Assembly (NCBI GenBank): GCA_947497495.1
Contig: CANMGT010000007.1
Span: 1 to 64,000, forward strand
Direction: 5' to 3'
DNA from: an uncultured Lentibacter sp.
Lineage (GTDB): Bacteria > Pseudomonadota > Alphaproteobacteria > Rhodobacterales > Rhodobacteraceae
Length of the DNA: 64,000 nucleotides
Below are positions 41,456 through 49,124 of this stretch, piece by piece; positions within the stretch are counted from its first letter, which is position 1, and each line of letters starts with the position of its first letter. The notes beneath the pieces were generated by a model. It saw only the letters and a program-made list of their open reading frames with translations. It did no database searches and was not told the DNA's origin. Both the position numbers and the translations under genes were made by a program.

Positions 41456-42283
41456 ATGCGACATACGCTGCCTCTGGCACCGCAGTTTTACGTGACGGCC
41501 CCGCAGCCCTGCCCCTACCTTGAAGGCAGGCTCGAGCGCAAGCTGTTCACCGCCCTGCAAGGCCAAGGCGCCCAAGAGCTGAACGACGGCCTCTCGCACC
41601 AAGGCTTCCGGCGCTCACAAAACGTGCTCTACCGCCCTTCCTGCACCGACTGTTCGGCCTGCCTGTCCGCGCGGATCGAAATAGAAAACTTCACAGCCTC
41701 CAAAAGCCAGAAGCGCGTGCTGAAGAAAAACGCTAACCTTGAGCGCCGCGTGACCTCGCCCTGGGCGACCGAAGAGCAATACGAGCTGTTTCGCCGCTAC
41801 CTTGACAGCCGCCACGCCGAAGGTGGCATGGCTGACATGGATGTCTTCGAGTTCGCCGCGATGATCGAAGAAACGCCGATCCGCTCGCGTGTGATCGAAT
41901 ACCATGATCGCGACACAGGCGCGCTCGTCGCCGTTTGCCTGACCGATGTTTTGAACGACGGGCTGTCGATGGTCTATTCCTTCTTTGACCCGACCTACGA
42001 AAAACACTCGCTCGGCACCTTCATCATCCTTGATCACATCGCAATCGCCCGTGAAAGCAACATGCCCTTCGTCTATCTGGGCTATTGGGTGCCCGGCTCG
42101 GCGAAAATGGGCTACAAAGCAAAGTTCTCGGCGCTTCAAATCTACAAACACAGCGCGTGGCACCCCCTCGGCGACCCGGCCGATCACGACACCGAGACAC
42201 ACCCGCTCTCAACCGCCCCCATCGCCGAACAAGTCGCCAACATCTCCCTGCCCGACCTGCCCGCGCACCGCAAAACCCGCTGA
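41456..42283 (+). CDS. bpt: leucyl/phenylalanyl-type arginyl-tRNA--protein transferase Bpt
   Basis: From the ATG at 41456 the protein is 275 aa and starts [20 protein letters not shown]. The Cys-rich N-terminal block ([28 protein letters not shown]) and C-terminal [20 protein letters not shown] define the ATE/Bpt fold. Bpt attaches leucine to N-terminal Asp or Glu, marking proteins for ClpS-ClpAP. In-frame ATGs at 41396 and 41429 are less typical. It is the last core gene before the accessory island. Confidence 0.94.
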
Positions 42284-42844: not shown

Positions 42845-43126
42845 CTAGAAGTCGTCAAATTCTGGAACACTGCCCATCCTTATAAGGAAGCTCGGCGCGC
42901 CAACCTCTCCGCTGTTTGGGTCCTCAATGACCATGTAAGCGTCGGCACCCGCGCAATCCTCTGATAGAGATTCTCGCTCAGCTCTGTTCTGTGCCTCCGA
43001 CGCTGTGGAGTATTCGAATTGCTTGGCAATTTTTAAGCCGGCCTGCCCATCGCGTCCAGCCTTCGTTTTCACATACGTTTGGCAGATGTAATGGATTTTT
43101 TCTGCGGTTTGTTCTGAATTCGTCAT
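42845..43126 (-). CDS. hypothetical protein (93 aa), last gene of island operon
   Basis: A 93-aa soluble protein starting MTNSEQTAEKIHYICQTYV, with GGL-like core AGLKIAKQFEYSTASEAQNRAE and an acidic C-terminus PEFDDF. An AAGGATC ribosome binding site precedes the ATG. The composition (about 14 Glu/Asp in the second half) and absence of a signal suggest a small cytoplasmic protein. It follows the 72-aa gene by 21 bases, so it is co-transcribed with it. No family recognised. Confidence 0.7.
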   Translation of the reverse strand: MTNSEQTAEKIHYICQTYVKTKAGRDGQAGLKIAKQFEYSTASEAQNRAERESLSEDCAGADAYMVIEDPNSGEVGAPSFLIRMGSVPEFDDF

Positions 43127-43147
43127 GGACTGATCCTTTGAGGAAGC

Positions 43148-43366
43148 CTACGAGCGACGCGTTTTACGCGTGGCTGTGGTTGTGGTTTCTGGTGGCGCGC
43201 TTGCTTCTCTTTCAAGACGGGCCTTGCGAAGACGGGTAATCTTAACTTGTCGTTGCTTCTCTTCTTCGTCGATCATGCCTCTGACAACACGCGTTGTCTT
43301 GTCCATCGCGGTTTCCGGTTTGGGAACATACGCTTTGGCGCCATTTGGTTTTTTAATATTCTTCAT
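43148..43366 (-). CDS. hypothetical basic protein (72 aa)
   Basis: A 72-aa strongly charged protein: MKNIKKPNGAKAYVPKPETA, then a Lys/Arg/Glu helix IDEEEKQRQVKITRLRKARL and a basic threonine-rich tail. A GGGAG ribosome binding site lies nine bases upstream of the ATG. It probably forms a single long helix and could bind nucleic acid, but nothing proves this. It is 50 bases downstream of the racemase gene on the same strand. Confidence 0.62.
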   Translation of the reverse strand: MKNIKKPNGAKAYVPKPETAMDKTTRVVRGMIDEEEKQRQVKITRLRKARLEREASAPPETTTTATRKTRRS

Positions 43367-43416
43367 TGGTGTGTCTCCCTTTTTGGTTTCAGGTCGGTTG
43401 GTCTAGGCGAGGTGTT

Positions 43417-44538
43417 TCAAACCAGCGCCAGGTGTTGGGGCTTGTCTTGGGTACGCCGCGGGTGTCTTGGAGGGCGATCATCGAGCAGTTTTACTTTGAT
43501 GTCGGGCGCGGCCATTGCATGCATCAACGCATTGTAGTTCATCTGGAACTTCACTTCAGATCCCACCTTCAAGATGGTTCGGTTCGTCCCAATGACGAGA
43601 TGATCGCTGGTTGCACCGATAAATGTGCTGCCAGCAGGCATTGAAAGCCCCAAAATGTCGGTGTCCTGCTGCCCTATCGCGAGGATATGGCGTTTGGAAA
43701 CCCCACTGACTGGCGCGATACGAAGTCTTGCCAAAGTTGGATCGACCAAGGCGATGGGGAAAGGCGCTGGTTTTGCACTCGCTTCAATAACTTCGGCGAC
43801 AAGCGTGAAGGCGTCCGTGTGCATCCCGTCGATCTGCTCGCCAGACACTGGTTCAACACCCAAAAGGATTGCCTCACCCAGCCTCAGGTTGTTGATGCGG
43901 CCAGTAGATTGTTCGCCAAACGCCCAGGGTAGGTTGGCAGAACCGCCGCCGGATACGATCTTGAGGAATGGGCCGCACGCCCCCTCGATTTCATTCGCCA
44001 GAGCGCCAAAATTGGCCATTTGAGACGTCGTCGGGGCGAGCCCGCTTAAACAAGCAAAGTTTGCGCCAATGCCTTTCAACGCGACCCCCCGCATAGTCAT
44101 AACCTGCAGCGCAACTTCAGCCAGGTTCTCGGGTAAAATACCTTCGCGTCGATCGCCCATCTCGACCATCAGTATGATACCGTGAACCCTTCCTCTGCGG
44201 ATGGCGGCAGATGACAAGGCGGCAATGACAGCAATCTCTGTGTTATAGCTCGCTTCACAGAACTGAACCACTTGATCGGCTTGGCTCATCATCGGCGTCC
44301 GGATCAGAGTGACTGGGCTTGTGATGCCTGCTTGACGTAACCTCTGCACATTGCTGATGCGTGCATCCGCAAGCCCCGCGACACCTCCGTCGAGCAGAGC
44401 TTGAGCGATCGCAGGGTGCCCGCGGACACCCTTGGTAACGCCTGTGACATCAATCCCACGCGCGCCCAACCGCCGAACGACGGTTTGTGTGTTGCGACGT
44501 ATCTTGTTCAGATCTACTTCAATACGCGGGCAGCTCAT
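43417..44538 (-). CDS. PLP-dependent amino-acid racemase, alanine-racemase fold (COG3457-like)
   Basis: The 373-aa protein begins like an alanine racemase barrel: IEVDLNKIRRNTQTVVRR, then VTGVTKGVRGHPAIAQALL, in which K36 is the expected PLP lysine. GVAGLADARISNVQRLRQAG, ILMVEMGDRREGILPENL, FACLSGLAPT and SGGGSANLPW follow the fold III phosphate-binding layout of the COG3457 group, which includes ornithine racemases. The canonical alanine-racemase sequence KADAYGHG is absent, so the substrate is not simply alanine. The start overlaps the stop of the DUF1611 gene by ATGA, showing translational coupling. Confidence 0.85.
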   Translation of the reverse strand: MSCPRIEVDLNKIRRNTQTVVRRLGARGIDVTGVTKGVRGHPAIAQALLDGGVAGLADARISNVQRLRQAGITSPVTLIRTPMMSQADQVVQFCEASYNTEIAVIAALSSAAIRRGRVHGIILMVEMGDRREGILPENLAEVALQVMTMRGVALKGIGANFACLSGLAPTTSQMANFGALANEIEGACGPFLKIVSGGGSANLPWAFGEQSTGRINNLRLGEAILLGVEPVSGEQIDGMHTDAFTLVAEVIEASAKPAPFPIALVDPTLARLRIAPVSGVSKRHILAIGQQDTDILGLSMPAGSTFIGATSDHLVIGTNRTILKVGSEVKFQMNYNALMHAMAAPDIKVKLLDDRPPRHPRRTQDKPQHLALV

Positions 44539-45734
44539 ATCGCGACCATGGGGGGCCTTTTGGACAGGTCGGGGTATGCGGCGACCACCATTGCGAGCAA
44601 ATGTGAGGCCGGTCGCGCCAAGGCATCGGTGACTGGCAACCCGAGTTTTTGAGATTGTGCCGCGATGGTGTCGGTGATTTCAGCTTCGGTCATCCCCTCA
44701 TGATTTAGCGTGACACCTATGACCTTTGTATTGGCAAAGGCCTCAATCAGGGAAATCTCACTTGCAGCGGAAGGCATTGGCATACTGGGAAAATCGCAGC
44801 GATGTGCGCGTTTTGGCGCGTGCTGAAGGATGACAGCATCTGGCTGGCTGCCCCGCAGAATAAATGCCGATGTGCAGAACGCAGGATGGCTCAGCGCGCC
44901 CTGACCTTCGATCAAAATGACATCGGGTTGCTCCGCTTCAGACGCCGCAACAATCGCGCCTTCAAGCTCGCCACAGCAGAACTGGGGCGGCACTGCATCC
45001 ATTGCGATGCCATATTTGGCCCCCTGCATCAAGCCGGTCTGGCCTGTGCCGACAAGCACTGTCTTGATGCCCTTCGCATTCAGGGCGCGCGCCAAAACGG
45101 TCGCCGTTGTCCGCTTGCCGATCGCGCAATCAGTACCAAGAACGGCAATCCGCAGCGCCTTTACACCAGCAACACTGCCATCGAAGAGGCGCATGTCCTT
45201 ACTGGGCTTTGGCTTTCGGATGTCGCGGATCGTGACATTCCGTTCGGATGCTGCGGTGGCTATTTCTCTATCATCGCTCAGATATTCATGCAGCCCGCTC
45301 ACGATGTTCATGCCAAGCTCTATCGCTTTCAGAACAACGCCCCGGTCAGCCTTCGAAAGACGCCCTATTGAGGGGGCCATCCCATAGATCAAAGTATCGG
45401 GAATGACGGCTTCATGGACAATTGCGGCATCCAGATGACCAAAGATCGGTATGTGGTTCATCGCATCGTCGAGGACGGATCCGCTGTCTTGTCCGCCATA
45501 GGTGCTGTCGATGACAGAAAGGATGCGATACGCCTCAGAATGGCGCACAAGGCCATTCGCAGTCTTGCCGTCGATTTGCGCGAAGTTCCCCTCGCAATAG
45601 ACGACTGCCGAGGGTGTTGCTGCGATCTGCATGACCGAAGTCAGATGGGTCGGCTCGTTTGGGGCCATTGGCGGCGCTTGAGCGCCTCTGACAAGGCGGC
45701 GGATTGTGTCGACAGTTTTGGAAGTGGTTTCCAT
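44535..45734 (-). CDS. DUF1611 (COG3367) P-loop protein, DgcN-like
   Basis: A 399-aa protein with an N-terminal Rossmann-like half (VVYCEGNFAQIDGKTANGL, DLDAAIVHEAVI region) and a C-terminal P-loop domain with AVLGTDCAIGKRTTATVLAR, VGTGQTGLMQG, ILIEGQGALSHPA and GVTLNHEGMTEAEI. DUF1611 proteins include DgcN, described as a D-glutamate N-acetyltransferase that works with the enolase-type racemase DgcA in marine bacteria. Here the partner is a PLP-type racemase instead. The substrate is therefore open. An AAGGA ribosome binding site precedes the ATG; the gene is 81 bases after the repeat-protein gene. Confidence 0.85.
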   Translation of the reverse strand: METTSKTVDTIRRLVRGAQAPPMAPNEPTHLTSVMQIAATPSAVVYCEGNFAQIDGKTANGLVRHSEAYRILSVIDSTYGGQDSGSVLDDAMNHIPIFGHLDAAIVHEAVIPDTLIYGMAPSIGRLSKADRGVVLKAIELGMNIVSGLHEYLSDDREIATAASERNVTIRDIRKPKPSKDMRLFDGSVAGVKALRIAVLGTDCAIGKRTTATVLARALNAKGIKTVLVGTGQTGLMQGAKYGIAMDAVPPQFCCGELEGAIVAASEAEQPDVILIEGQGALSHPAFCTSAFILRGSQPDAVILQHAPKRAHRCDFPSMPMPSAASEISLIEAFANTKVIGVTLNHEGMTEAEITDTIAAQSQKLGLPVTDALARPASHLLAMVVAAYPDLSKRPPMVAI

Positions 45735-45815
45735 TGTAATTCCTTTTTTGTTGGCAAGGAGGACAGAGCTGTCATCACCTGCGCATTTTGAAGTCCGAGT
45801 TGCTGTGCTCTGCGC

Positions 45816-46655
45816 CTAGTTGTTCAGCACGCATTGCCCCCTTGATCTTTGGAAGTTCCTGTCGCATGCCCAGCGGTTTCCTGATCGATCCAGATGGGCA
45901 TTGGCCGGGATGTCTATGATATCGCAACTCTGGCCCGAGGCCGCATATCCGCGTTCACAGCGCCAACCGGAGCCATAGCTTGCATCGTCAAAGTATGCAT
46001 TCGCAGGGATCACGACAGCTTCACACAGGCCGGCTTTTTCAAAAAAGCCGCGTTCACACGTCCATGGCTGACCGTATCCTGATCCGTTCAGATAGGCGTT
46101 GGCCGGAATCTTAATGGCAGCACATTGCTCACCAGTCGCTTCAAATCCGCGGTCGCATGTCCAAGCGGAGCCACTTGAGGCATCTGCCAAGTATGCATTC
46201 GCAGGCAGGACGATCTTTTGACATGTTTTATCAACCTTGATGTAGCCGCGCGAACAACGCCAGCGTTCGCCTGACGGGTCTAGAAACCCACCATCTGGCA
46301 CCTCAACTTCAACACAGGCAGTGTCATCGGTTCTGCGAAACCCATGCAGACACTCCCATCCCGAACCGTGGCGCCGGTTCGTTTCATATGCGTTTGCTGG
46401 CACAATCACAGCGACACAGGCATTCTCCTTTAGCCTAAATCCGATGTTACATTCCCATCCATCACCGTAACTTTTGGCACTGGCATTCTCAGGCATCTGC
46501 CGAGCGACGGTTTTTGCAAATGTAGGTAGTGCAAATAGCAAGACTGCAATAATCGACCCAATAAAGAGGGCCATGATTGTTGGTATGTCCGCTGCGATAT
46601 TGGCACTGTTAGATTGCGGGGGTCGCGGCTTTATGAACTGTGATTTAGGATCCAT
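45816..46655 (-). CDS. exported Cys-rich protein with seven PANAY-x-WxCxRGF repeats
   Basis: From the ATG at 46655 the product is 279 aa: a short cytosolic part, one TM or uncleaved signal (MALFIGSIIAVLLFALPTFA) and seven repeats of about 31-34 residues. The consensus is (I/V)PANAYLD..G.GW.C.RGF......C, with two cysteines per repeat (for example IPANAYLNGSGYGQPWTCER). The spacing suggests one disulfide per repeat, outside the cytoplasm. I have seen such repeats in other proteobacterial proteins but know no function. The start lies inside the end of the upstream gene (11-base overlap), so expression is coupled. Confidence 0.8.
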   Translation of the reverse strand: MDPKSQFIKPRPPQSNSANIAADIPTIMALFIGSIIAVLLFALPTFAKTVARQMPENASAKSYGDGWECNIGFRLKENACVAVIVPANAYETNRRHGSGWECLHGFRRTDDTACVEVEVPDGGFLDPSGERWRCSRGYIKVDKTCQKIVLPANAYLADASSGSAWTCDRGFEATGEQCAAIKIPANAYLNGSGYGQPWTCERGFFEKAGLCEAVVIPANAYFDDASYGSGWRCERGYAASGQSCDIIDIPANAHLDRSGNRWACDRNFQRSRGQCVLNN

Positions 46656-46998
46656 CCAACTCAAGCCCCGCGAGACACGCGTCTGCCAAATCCCAGCTTG
46701 GGGCATCAGTGCCCGGCAAAGTGGCCCAGCCTGTTTCCATCATGATTTTGCGCCGTTGAAAGCTTGAAGCGTCTTGAAGTATCGCTAGTTTTGCGGCGCG
46801 TTCGGTATCAACCTGTGAACGTTTCAAACAGACCGGCACCATCGCCAATGTGACTTCTTCTGCTGCAAAGTTCCGAGCCATCTCGCCTGCACTGCCTGCA
46901 GTTGTCCAGCCGCCCCAGTTGAAGCCAAGAATAGAGACAGTAACCGCGCCAACCAAGGCGCCGTAAACACCGGGTTTCGTCCATTCGGGAAAAGTCAT
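46645..46998 (-). CDS. small membrane-anchored hypothetical protein (117 aa)
   Basis: The 117-aa protein has one N-terminal TM (VYGALVGAVTVSILGFNWGG) followed by TAGSAGEMARNFAAEEV, VPVCLKRSQVDTERAA and a C-terminal ASSFQRRKIMMETGWATLPG. This pattern is widespread in alphaproteobacterial hypothetical proteins as I remember it. One or two cysteines in the soluble part. It overlaps the upstream 103-aa gene by ATGA and the downstream repeat-protein gene by 11 bases. Confidence 0.75.
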   Translation of the reverse strand: MTFPEWTKPGVYGALVGAVTVSILGFNWGGWTTAGSAGEMARNFAAEEVTLAMVPVCLKRSQVDTERAAKLAILQDASSFQRRKIMMETGWATLPGTDAPSWDLADACLAGLELDGS

Positions 46999-47306
46999 TT
47001 TCGTTCCTCTGACGGAGAAAGCGCCGCCGCACTATTTTTGATTACGTTAGTGTTTGCCTTGGCCTGATCCTGCGCCAGAGCCAACTCCAGGTCTCGGTGA
47101 TCCACAGCGCGCAGCTCTGATTTTCCTGTGTGCCAATTGATCAATAGAAACGTCGCTGTCCGTCGGTATGCCGCAAAGCTGTCGCTCTGCATGACGTCTT
47201 CGTCTGCCAACACTTCGTAGTCGCCCGCGGGCAGCTCATCCGTATATCCCGCGACCACAAACGGATGAAGAAATGTCACAACTGACGTGGTCGTGCGCGA
47301 TGACAT
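46995..47306 (-). CDS. hypothetical protein (103 aa)
   Basis: Started at 47306 (MSSRTTTSVVTFLHPFVVAG), with AAGG seven bases upstream. The core VVAGYTDELPAGDYEVLADED followed by SFAAYRRTATFLLIN is a pattern I recall from small alphaproteobacterial proteins of unknown function; it looks like a compact beta-rich domain. The C-terminal tail is Ala/Lys/Asn-rich. Its stop overlaps the 117-aa gene start (ATGA). Confidence 0.72.
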   Translation of the reverse strand: MSSRTTTSVVTFLHPFVVAGYTDELPAGDYEVLADEDVMQSDSFAAYRRTATFLLINWHTGKSELRAVDHRDLELALAQDQAKANTNVIKNSAAALSPSEERK

Positions 47307-47324
47307 CGGCAACCTTCCCAAACA

Positions 47325-47602
47325 TCAGATCCCTGCTACAGGACGTGACAGCTGAATTTTCATGATGGATGGTTGTGGTTCGCTATGGCAGGCTGATGCG
47401 CCTATGCCGGAGTAAACCGCAACTTTCGTATCTCTCACATAGTCTCTTAGCGTCGGAAATACAATGTTGGTGATTCCGGCTCCATTTCTCAGACCACCCG
47501 TGCCCTTAAAGAAGTCAAGGTTGGTAAACCCCCAGCGTGAGCATCGGAAGAGCCTTCTCCAGTTATGTCATTCTCTCGATACGCCTGTTCAGAAGCTGAC
47601 AT
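47325..47602 (-). pseudogene. frameshifted small gene at the head of the island operon
   Basis: Two minus-strand frames join at a run of five G (47529-47533). The upstream frame starts ATG at 47602 (MSASEQAYRENDITGEGSSD) and the downstream frame carries FTNLDFFKGTGGLRNGAGIT through QLSRPVAGI to a TGA at 47325. One extra G would fuse them into a protein of about 92 aa. The downstream frame has no start of its own, and its stop is 18 bases from the next gene, as in an operon. It is either a decayed gene, a sequencing error in the homopolymer, or programmed slippage. I do not recognise the product. Confidence 0.45.
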
Positions 47603-47713: not shown

Positions 47714-48346
47714 TTAGATGTCGATACGCTCTGCAATACTTAGAGCATCTTCTAGCTCAACGCCGAGGTAGCGCACCGTGCTATCAACCTTTGTATGGCC
47801 AAGCAGGAGTTGCACCGCGCGGAGGTTGCCTGTTTTGCGGTAGATTTCTGCAGCTTTAGTCCGACGAAGTGAATGGGTACCATAGCCACTGGGCTCCAAT
47901 CCGATCGCTGTCACCCAATCACGAACAAGTCGACCGTATTGTCGCGTCGAGATGTGGGGCCGATCGTGGAAACGGCTCGTGAACATAAAGCGACAACCAA
48001 TCATTTCGGGTGATGTGACCCACGCAATGACAGTATCTCTTGTGTTTTCAGTCAACTCGAATTGGACTGGTCGCTTGGTTTTGCTCTGGATGACCGAAAC
48101 CCGTTCGCGCGCGCGATCATCCTTGACCAAATCGGTCACGGTGAGTTTGACCAGATCACAGCCGCGCAGCTTGCTATCGATCGCTACGTTGAACAGCGCA
48201 AGGTCGCGAAGATAGCCCGCAATTTCGAGCCGCGCACGGATGGCCCAGACCTGCTTTGGCAATAGCGGTCGTTTCTGTCCGATTATCCGGCCCTTATTCC
48301 AAGCTCGGCGTTTCGGGGTGACGGCGGGAAGTTGGACTCTTGGCAT
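47714..48346 (-). CDS. compact tyrosine recombinase/integrase
   Basis: Started at 48346, eight bases after GGAGG, the protein is 210 aa. All catalytic residues of the tyrosine recombinase fold are present: R61 (SKLRGCDLVKL), K89, H158 and R161 (THSLRRTKA), H184 (LLGHTKVDSTVRYLG) and the nucleophile Y193. The N-terminal SAM-like core-binding domain is missing or minimal, as in a Rhodobacterales family of about 210 aa often carried on plasmids and islands. It lies at the edge of the accessory island and is oriented toward it. No matching attachment repeats could be identified by eye. Confidence 0.88.
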   Translation of the reverse strand: MPRVQLPAVTPKRRAWNKGRIIGQKRPLLPKQVWAIRARLEIAGYLRDLALFNVAIDSKLRGCDLVKLTVTDLVKDDRARERVSVIQSKTKRPVQFELTENTRDTVIAWVTSPEMIGCRFMFTSRFHDRPHISTRQYGRLVRDWVTAIGLEPSGYGTHSLRRTKAAEIYRKTGNLRAVQLLLGHTKVDSTVRYLGVELEDALSIAERIDI

Positions 48347-48989
48347 GATTTGCCCTCCATCCAACCCTCCAACCCAAACATCAGCACCGCGCCGACGTCG
48401 AGAGCTTAGCATCGGATTGAATGGCCGTTGCCCGAAGGCTCAATTGCGTAGTATCTCTTCAGGTGCATTGGGCCGCAGCCAGTCCATTTTAACGGATGCT
48501 ACGAAATTCACTAAATTCGGCTTGGTGACGTGGTCCTTGCGATATTTTTCCAAATGTCCGTTTTTTCTCCGATAGCGAGGGTTGTCACCTTTCAGCCGAA
48601 AGGTGAAACGGCGCTCGTTGAAGAGGCTCATTTACGTCCTGACGGTGGCGTCTGTCGTGCTGAGGAATGGCCGCGGCGAACGCCCCGTTTACCTTTGACC
48701 ATGCTGCGTTGCAGCGCAAAAATTGTGCATACGCGTGCTGCACGGATAGCTGCACTGCATTATGCATACCGTAGGCACTTGCGATCCACTCGCAGTTTCT
48801 GCGTTTACACAAGTTACAATTTGGCTAATTTTCCGGCTCAAATTACCAATTCTGAGCTTTGCGGTGGGATTTTCGCAATAAAAATACAAAAAAAGCCACT
48901 CAAACGTTCATTTATTCAGGAATTCGCGGTTGACGCCCCTTTTGAGCGGGCATAGTGTCCTCGCGAACGCAGCATAGAGGGCTTCCGGC
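48347..48989. other. non-coding stretch between recombinase and ilv leader
   Basis: About 640 bases with no gene that I can support. It holds a TGC-rich tract at about 48700-48770 with CTGC-GTT-GCAG (48704-48714) and the 16-mer TGCACTGCATTATGCA (48751-48766), then an AT-rich segment (48790-48910) that may contain the ilv promoter. A 63-codon minus-strand frame at 48440-48631 is possible but weak. Confidence 0.5.
48704..48766. promoter_or_regulatory. TGC-rich inverted-repeat tract (PhaR-like site?)
   Basis: CTGC-N3-GCAG at 48704-48714 resembles the TGC-rich sites bound by the polyhydroxyalkanoate regulator PhaR in Paracoccus and Rhodobacter. More TGC/GCA words follow, including TGCACTGCATTATGCA, whose exact reverse complement recurs at 54106-54121. 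No pha gene is adjacent. Confidence 0.3.
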
Positions 48990-49086: not shown

Positions 49087-49124
49087 ATGTGCGAATACAA
49101 TGTGTTGAAACGGAGTTTGGAAAT

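Follow-up and report, generated by a model that had tools for sequence, protein, structure and literature searches.

The window analysed here, a stretch of 64,000 nucleotides from contig CANMGT010000007.1 of an uncultured Lentibacter sp. (assembly GCA_947497495.1), carries on its minus strand seven consecutive genes between positions 42845 and 47306. In transcription order we call them A103, B117, CYS, DUF1611, RAC, S72 and S93 (Table 1). An earlier note on this DNA had proposed an operon of seven or eight genes joined by overlaps and short gaps, forming a single unit that is not a known named system. Indeed, all seven genes are present at the positions it gave, with ATGA overlaps at 46995-46998 (A103/B117) and 44535-44538 (DUF1611/RAC), an 11-base overlap of B117 and CYS at 46645-46655 and short gaps between the other neighbours. 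The start of A103 is the ATG at 47306, where the methionine is invariant in 15 aligned sequences. The eighth gene, at 47322-47602, was not retained: it has in-frame stops in four of eight close relatives, its changes are spread evenly over the three codon positions (23, 25 and 24), and the region is a non-coding leader. A103, B117, CYS, S72 and S93 gave no match above cutoff to a curated family of Pfam, NCBIfam, PHROG or PADLOC.

Table 1. Features of the operon and its upstream side (positions in the window)
Feature	Position	Strand	Description
A103	46995-47306	-	103 residues; no Pfam or NCBIfam family; start Met invariant
B117	46645-46998	-	117 residues; hydrophobic N-terminal segment
CYS	45816-46655	-	Seven two-Cys repeats; predicted exported or membrane-anchored (alignment, model, structure search)
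DUF1611	44535-45734	-	PF07755 and PF17396; CbiA/BioD-like P-loop; distant DgcN relative
RAC	43417-44538	-	PF01168; pyridoxal phosphate (PLP)-dependent racemase of the alanine/ornithine racemase family
S72	43148-43366	-	Small basic protein
S93	42845-43126	-	93 residues; predicted beta-beta-alpha-beta-beta
Tyrosine recombinase	47714-48412	-	PF00589; adjoins the operon on its upstream side; probable mobilising enzyme
Leader RNA	47344-47436	-	Conserved structure; hairpin stem 47372-47423
Promoter-like element	47440-47464	-	TTG (47464-47462) and CTA (47442-47440), both invariant in 16 loci; putative promoter
Possible 12-codon leader peptide MKIQLSRPVAGI	47325-47363	-	Between hairpin and A103; weak candidate

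The earlier note had called for a comparison of gene order with other genomes. We examined 38 loci, some of them on contigs and plasmids with names (from Phaeobacter porticola, pP97_c, and from Aliiroseovarius and Ruegeria), and found that the seven-gene order recurs at more than 30 other Rhodobacteraceae loci, both chromosomal and plasmid-borne. The order A-B-CYS-DUF1611-RAC-S72-S93 is maintained wherever the genes are present, with the exception of locus L051, where A, B and CYS are located elsewhere. The 4-base ATGA overlap of DUF1611 and RAC is kept in 34 of the 38 loci and the 11-base overlap of B117 and CYS in 23. A survey of 249 Rhodobacteraceae genomes, one per genus or nearly so, detected the DUF1611 subtype of the operon (at least 68% identity, the common DgcN type having 31-36%) in 29 genomes; the gene is intact in 27 of these, broken in G126 and truncated in G142. 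S93 is present in 19 of the 249 genomes, 18 of which carry the operon or a remnant of it, and 24 of 240 Alphaproteobacteria genomes have B117.

Every gene of the operon is under purifying selection, with median ratios of nonsynonymous to synonymous substitution (dN/dS) of 0.11-0.27. The pairwise distances of the genes are also correlated (r = 0.94 for DUF1611 and RAC, 0.92 for CYS and RAC, 0.87 for B117 and CYS), to a degree reached by none of 300 permutations. With overlaps kept, purifying selection and correlated distances, the seven-gene set is not a chance arrangement. The unit proposed by the earlier note therefore stands: its order is conserved, it falls below the cutoffs of the named systems considered below, and it appears to be undescribed so far. 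Partial copies also exist. CYS is absent in L062, L063 and L071, A103 has shrunk to a 3' remnant in one clade, and in G142 (L074) large internal deletions have removed parts of DUF1611 and RAC while A, B, CYS, S72, S93 and the leader are retained, so that none of the parts is essential to the others.

The leader has a conserved structure. Just after the invariant TTG and CTA motifs, it forms a long imperfect hairpin, and 90.6% of the cells of its 18-pair stem are paired in 16 loci, versus 23-48% when the partners are slid by 1-3 columns. Six pairs show double-sided changes in this 16-locus alignment, which none of 500 shuffles equalled; in a 23-locus alignment, itself fitted to the model, 11 of the 18 pairs do so. 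Since G-U pairs are frequent, an RNA is more likely than a DNA palindrome. A covariance model recovered the leader at seven further operon loci, plus a weak match at an eighth, L043; it found one copy in the genome to which the window belongs and, across 150 family genomes, matched operon loci only (7 of 7). In L051 and L066, where A-B-CYS is missing, the leader stands directly before DUF1611, which shows that it belongs to the transcription unit and not to A103.

Like riboswitches and attenuators, this leader is a conserved, operon-specific hairpin closely upstream of the first gene; unlike them, it corresponds to no Rfam family and has no evident intrinsic terminator after the hairpin. Searched with Rfam 15, the window stretch and three relatives gave a tRNA as their sole match and none to the leader, and a simple scan for sigma-70 promoters and terminators did not clearly yield more than shuffled sequences. 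Where a Crp/Fnr gene adjoins the operon, the leader is lacking, except in L051, whose Crp/Fnr gene belongs to a separate A-B-CYS unit (Fisher p = 0.00025, calculated before the weak L043 match and ignoring kinship). This suggests that the leader RNA and Crp/Fnr are two alternative control modes. The start codon of MKIQLSRPVAGI is present in seven of eight close relatives and lost in the other clade, and its status as a leader peptide is uncertain.

The operon is horizontally mobile, as indicated by occupied and unoccupied sites, by plasmid copies and by the presence of the closest copy in another genus. The closest copies of DUF1611 (88% identity) are found in other genera, whereas the copy of the same-genus genome G074, at another site, is only 73% identical. 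In the window, the island is flanked by an arginyl-tRNA transferase-like gene (bpt, ending at 42283) and by ilvB (starting at 49089). When these flanking genes were compared, six genomes of the same genus were found to have no island at this site: the two genes lie about 0.1-0.5 kb apart in G758, G759 and G761, and enclose other inserts, of about 2.5-3.6 kb, in G074, G762 and G763. From these empty and differently filled sites we conclude that the bpt-ilvB site is a hotspot of insertion, and that the island, of about 6.6 kb, was inserted there. No att-type direct repeats of at least 10 bp flank the insert, and its exact ends were not found. In about nine other loci, a homologue of the tyrosine recombinase occurs close to the operon, and one adjoins the DUF1611-RAC pair on a Vibrio europaeus plasmid. 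In relatives (L196-L200), genes that look transporter-like, P450-like and RTX-like are found within the bpt-ilvB region or next to ilvB, as judged from sequence only.

We then considered the two enzymes, which plausibly form a D-amino-acid enzyme pair, given the families to which they are assigned. The DUF1611 protein combines a Rossmann-like N-terminal domain with a P-loop domain, and its relatives in the PDB are 2g0t, 2obn and 7xrj. It was rejected as a DgcN, scoring 174.2 bits against an equivalog cutoff of 480. RAC has the alanine racemase N-domain fold (PF01168, 90.5 bits, cutoff 24.1), and its Lys36 and S311-D312-H313 are invariant in 23 sequences; with the Ala_racemase_N fold and the PLP lysine, it belongs to the broad alanine/ornithine racemase family. 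Within this family it was assigned neither to Orr (NF040742; 277.3 bits, cutoff 480) nor to alanine racemase Alr (TIGR00492; 40.4 bits, cutoff 168). It shares with clostridial Orr the racemase family and the conserved Lys and SDH motifs, but is only 29-39% identical to the clostridial copies and lies in a different gene context.

The core genome of the same organism (G000:C1, about 1036757-1039638; L075:9258-12139) carries in a row DgcN (557.9 bits, cutoff 480), DgcA (497.7 bits, cutoff 400) and a D-amino-acid transaminase. The pair in the window is thus a second, accessory DUF1611-racemase pair of this genome. According to published work (PMC12363236; also PMC10845958), D-acidic amino acids are racemised irreversibly by way of DgcN-DgcA, and the NCBIfam names are N-acetyltransferase for DgcN and N-acetyl-D-Glu racemase for DgcA. 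In a haloarchaeon, DUF1611 is paired with a dipeptide epimerase, so that DUF1611 accompanies a racemase in both of these architectures. The window pair resembles DgcN-DgcA (NF041892/NF042940), known from marine bacteria and haloarchaea, in that DUF1611 directly precedes an amino-acid racemase whose frame it overlaps. It differs in that its racemase is a PF01168 protein, PLP-dependent and by family precedent acting on free amino acids, and not the N-acetyl-Glu racemase of the enolase superfamily, the true DgcA being elsewhere in the genome; in addition, the pair is linked to CYS, B117 and the leader RNA. Our literature search returned nothing on DUF1611 together with a racemase, and DUF1611 alone was mentioned only twice, both times incidentally.

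CYS consists of a hydrophobic N-terminal segment followed by seven repeats of about 33 residues, each with two conserved cysteines and a tryptophan. These features fit the seven-repeat, disulfide-rich protein described in the earlier note, in which the disulfides themselves are presumed from the cysteine pairs. A structure model presents it as a string of small beta modules (predicted local distance difference test, pLDDT, 81; predicted template modelling score, pTM, 0.45), and what it matches best in the PDB are bead strings of the EGF and TNFR kind, NELL for example, at low template modelling score. We regard this modelled likeness as an analogy of shape, not homology. A search for CYS in phages gave no match.

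The operon is composite, since A-B-CYS and DUF1611-RAC each occur apart. CYS is present in 43 of the 249 family genomes, about 20 of which have no DUF1611-RAC pair. Enzyme-free A-B-CYS islands (L076, L077, L107-L125) are carried on Rhodobacteraceae plasmids and chromosomes, where their neighbours include genes for Crp/Fnr, transglutaminase-like proteins, GroES/GroEL, HflK/HflC, cold-shock proteins and a fatty-acid desaturase. A transglutaminase gene directly follows CYS in Roseovarius indicus and Paracoccus zhejiangensis, and in Phaeobacter porticola the DUF1611-RAC-S72-S93 cassette sits between the two. Conversely, Vibrio plasmids carry DUF1611-RAC without A-B-CYS, followed by a gene for a GspS-like pilotin lipoprotein and, in some of them, with HflKC or GroESL-Hsp20 nearby; on plasmid pVs58, DUF1611 is followed by HflKC. 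In two gammaproteobacterial genomes (L136, 1873-5811; L137, 8421-11648), a PAS histidine kinase gene comes after DUF1611-RAC.

These surroundings recall the enterobacterial transmissible locus of protein quality control (TLPQC), locus of heat resistance (LHR) and transmissible locus of stress tolerance (tLST), which are mobile stress cargo often doubling core functions, and the A-B-CYS relatives likewise occur with GroESL, HflKC and further proteostasis genes. However, none of the seven genes belongs to the dna-shsp20-clpG core of these loci, and the operon contains neither chaperone nor protease; among the annotated relatives, Hsp20 was found at one locus only and ClpG at none. In the Alphaproteobacteria, the A-B-CYS islands may correspond to the tLST/LHR stress islands.

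Based on these observations, we tentatively favour, with somewhat less than even confidence, a horizontally mobile accessory operon with its own structured leader RNA and a function in envelope or stress fitness in marine Rhodobacteraceae. The cell-envelope or extracellular role suggested in the earlier note agrees with the predicted export of CYS and with the stress-island relatives. The stress component is proposed mainly because the association with proteostasis genes recurs in two bacterial classes, an association that has no background frequency to be compared with and that comes from related, non-independent islands. As to chemistry, substrate, physiological role and regulator, we infer the following scheme. 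RAC would convert a free amino acid between its L- and D-forms, and DUF1611 would N-acylate the D-form, by analogy to the N-acetylation of D-glutamate annotated for DgcN, so that the equilibrium shifts to an N-acyl-D-amino acid. PLP racemases need a free amino group; racemisation by RAC would therefore precede N-acylation, if DUF1611 acylates. The net product would probably be an N-acyl-D-amino acid drawn from the L-pool, that is, in a biosynthetic and not a catabolic direction. CYS, exported and braced by disulfides, may act in the envelope with a membrane-anchored B117, and the hairpin, close to the 5' end of the mRNA, could tune the expression of all the operon genes. It would be a long shot that the product, which protects or remodels the envelope, is a hitherto undescribed N-acyl-D-amino acid or other D-amino-acid conjugate, and that this hairpin represents a new class of riboswitch or regulatory RNA, sensing either that product or the stress.

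Several points weigh against this proposal. DUF1611 scores far below the DgcN cutoff, so acyl transfer may not be its reaction, and its P-loop may serve ATP-dependent chemistry. Stress-gene neighbours occur at only a minority of the operon loci, and in the window the operon has the arginyl-tRNA transferase-like gene on one side and ilvB on the other. Two genomes (G142 and G126) have enzymes that are broken or have lost parts, and the retention of the five other genes in G142 indicates that the parts of the operon are not strictly interdependent. Finally, the loci share descent, so that the gene-gene correlations partly mirror a common history and are no independent proof of interaction.

The pair could instead serve scavenging, RAC and DUF1611 salvaging D-amino acids of seawater or peptidoglycan for growth, with CYS binding or scavenging outside the cytoplasm. 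DgcN-DgcA is known as a marine route of D-Glu utilisation (PMC10845958, PMC12363236), the genome has it beside a D-amino-acid transaminase, and the hosts are marine. However, that pathway is thereby already in the core genome, a PLP racemase would need no DUF1611 to interconvert D- and L-forms, the operon has no transporter, peptidase or deacylase, and the homologous pairs lie near chaperone and HflKC genes, not transporters; we hold this explanation to be rather unlikely. It is still less probable that the pair makes a D-amino-acid-derived signal sensed elsewhere, for small-molecule signalling or stress regulation, to which CYS or a histidine kinase responds. The dedicated leader RNA and the PAS histidine kinase would fit such a role, but the Rhodobacteraceae operon includes no kinase or receptor, and the gammaproteobacterial examples are just two.

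We give little credence to the idea that hitch-hiking genes form a chance run here, with no relation among them and kept together merely by joint movement, even if A-B-CYS alone, the enzyme pair alone and S93 alone (on Pseudosulfitobacter plasmids) all occur: starts and stops overlap, one leader is common to the genes, all of them are under purifying selection and the order is held in more than 30 loci. The defence role raised in the earlier note, as an anti-phage or toxin-type island, could be expected of a mobile, integrase-linked and patchily distributed element, and yet it found no backing. PADLOC gave no match for eight proteins and PHROG matched the integrase only; nothing encoded here is a nuclease, a toxin or, the P-loop of DUF1611 apart, an NTPase effector; the genes that recur nearby serve proteostasis and membrane stress and not defence; and the other bpt-ilvB inserts look metabolic (transporter-like, P450-like), a judgement made on sequence alone. 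We therefore regard defence as very improbable. The mobile operon with an envelope or stress-fitness function remains the explanation that we prefer. It would be an undescribed, widely transferred operon of an abundant marine bacterial group, coupling putative D-amino-acid chemistry to a predicted exported protein with EGF-like repeats. In it DUF1611, a family whose chemistry is still little known, has a second racemase partner, one of a different superfamily; the operon's new structured leader RNA marks intact as well as partial copies; and the operon points to plasmid-borne stress islands of Rhodobacteraceae whose logic may resemble that of the enterobacterial heat-resistance loci.

Further observations concern S93 and DUF1611. 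The fold of S93 retrieved nothing from the PDB at E ≤ 0.001, and the best match, a photosystem I chain at 0.078, was not used. On a conjugative plasmid of Pseudosulfitobacter (L201, 8001-8282), S93 alone adjoins an IS3 element, and close copies (80-90% identity) are found in 38 Pseudosulfitobacter plasmid records. A DUF1611 gene is also present in Erwinia and Dickeya jumbo phages; in Dickeya phage AD1 (L081, 4872-6789), where its partners are different ones, it adjoins a putative asparagine synthase gene and a methyltransferase gene.

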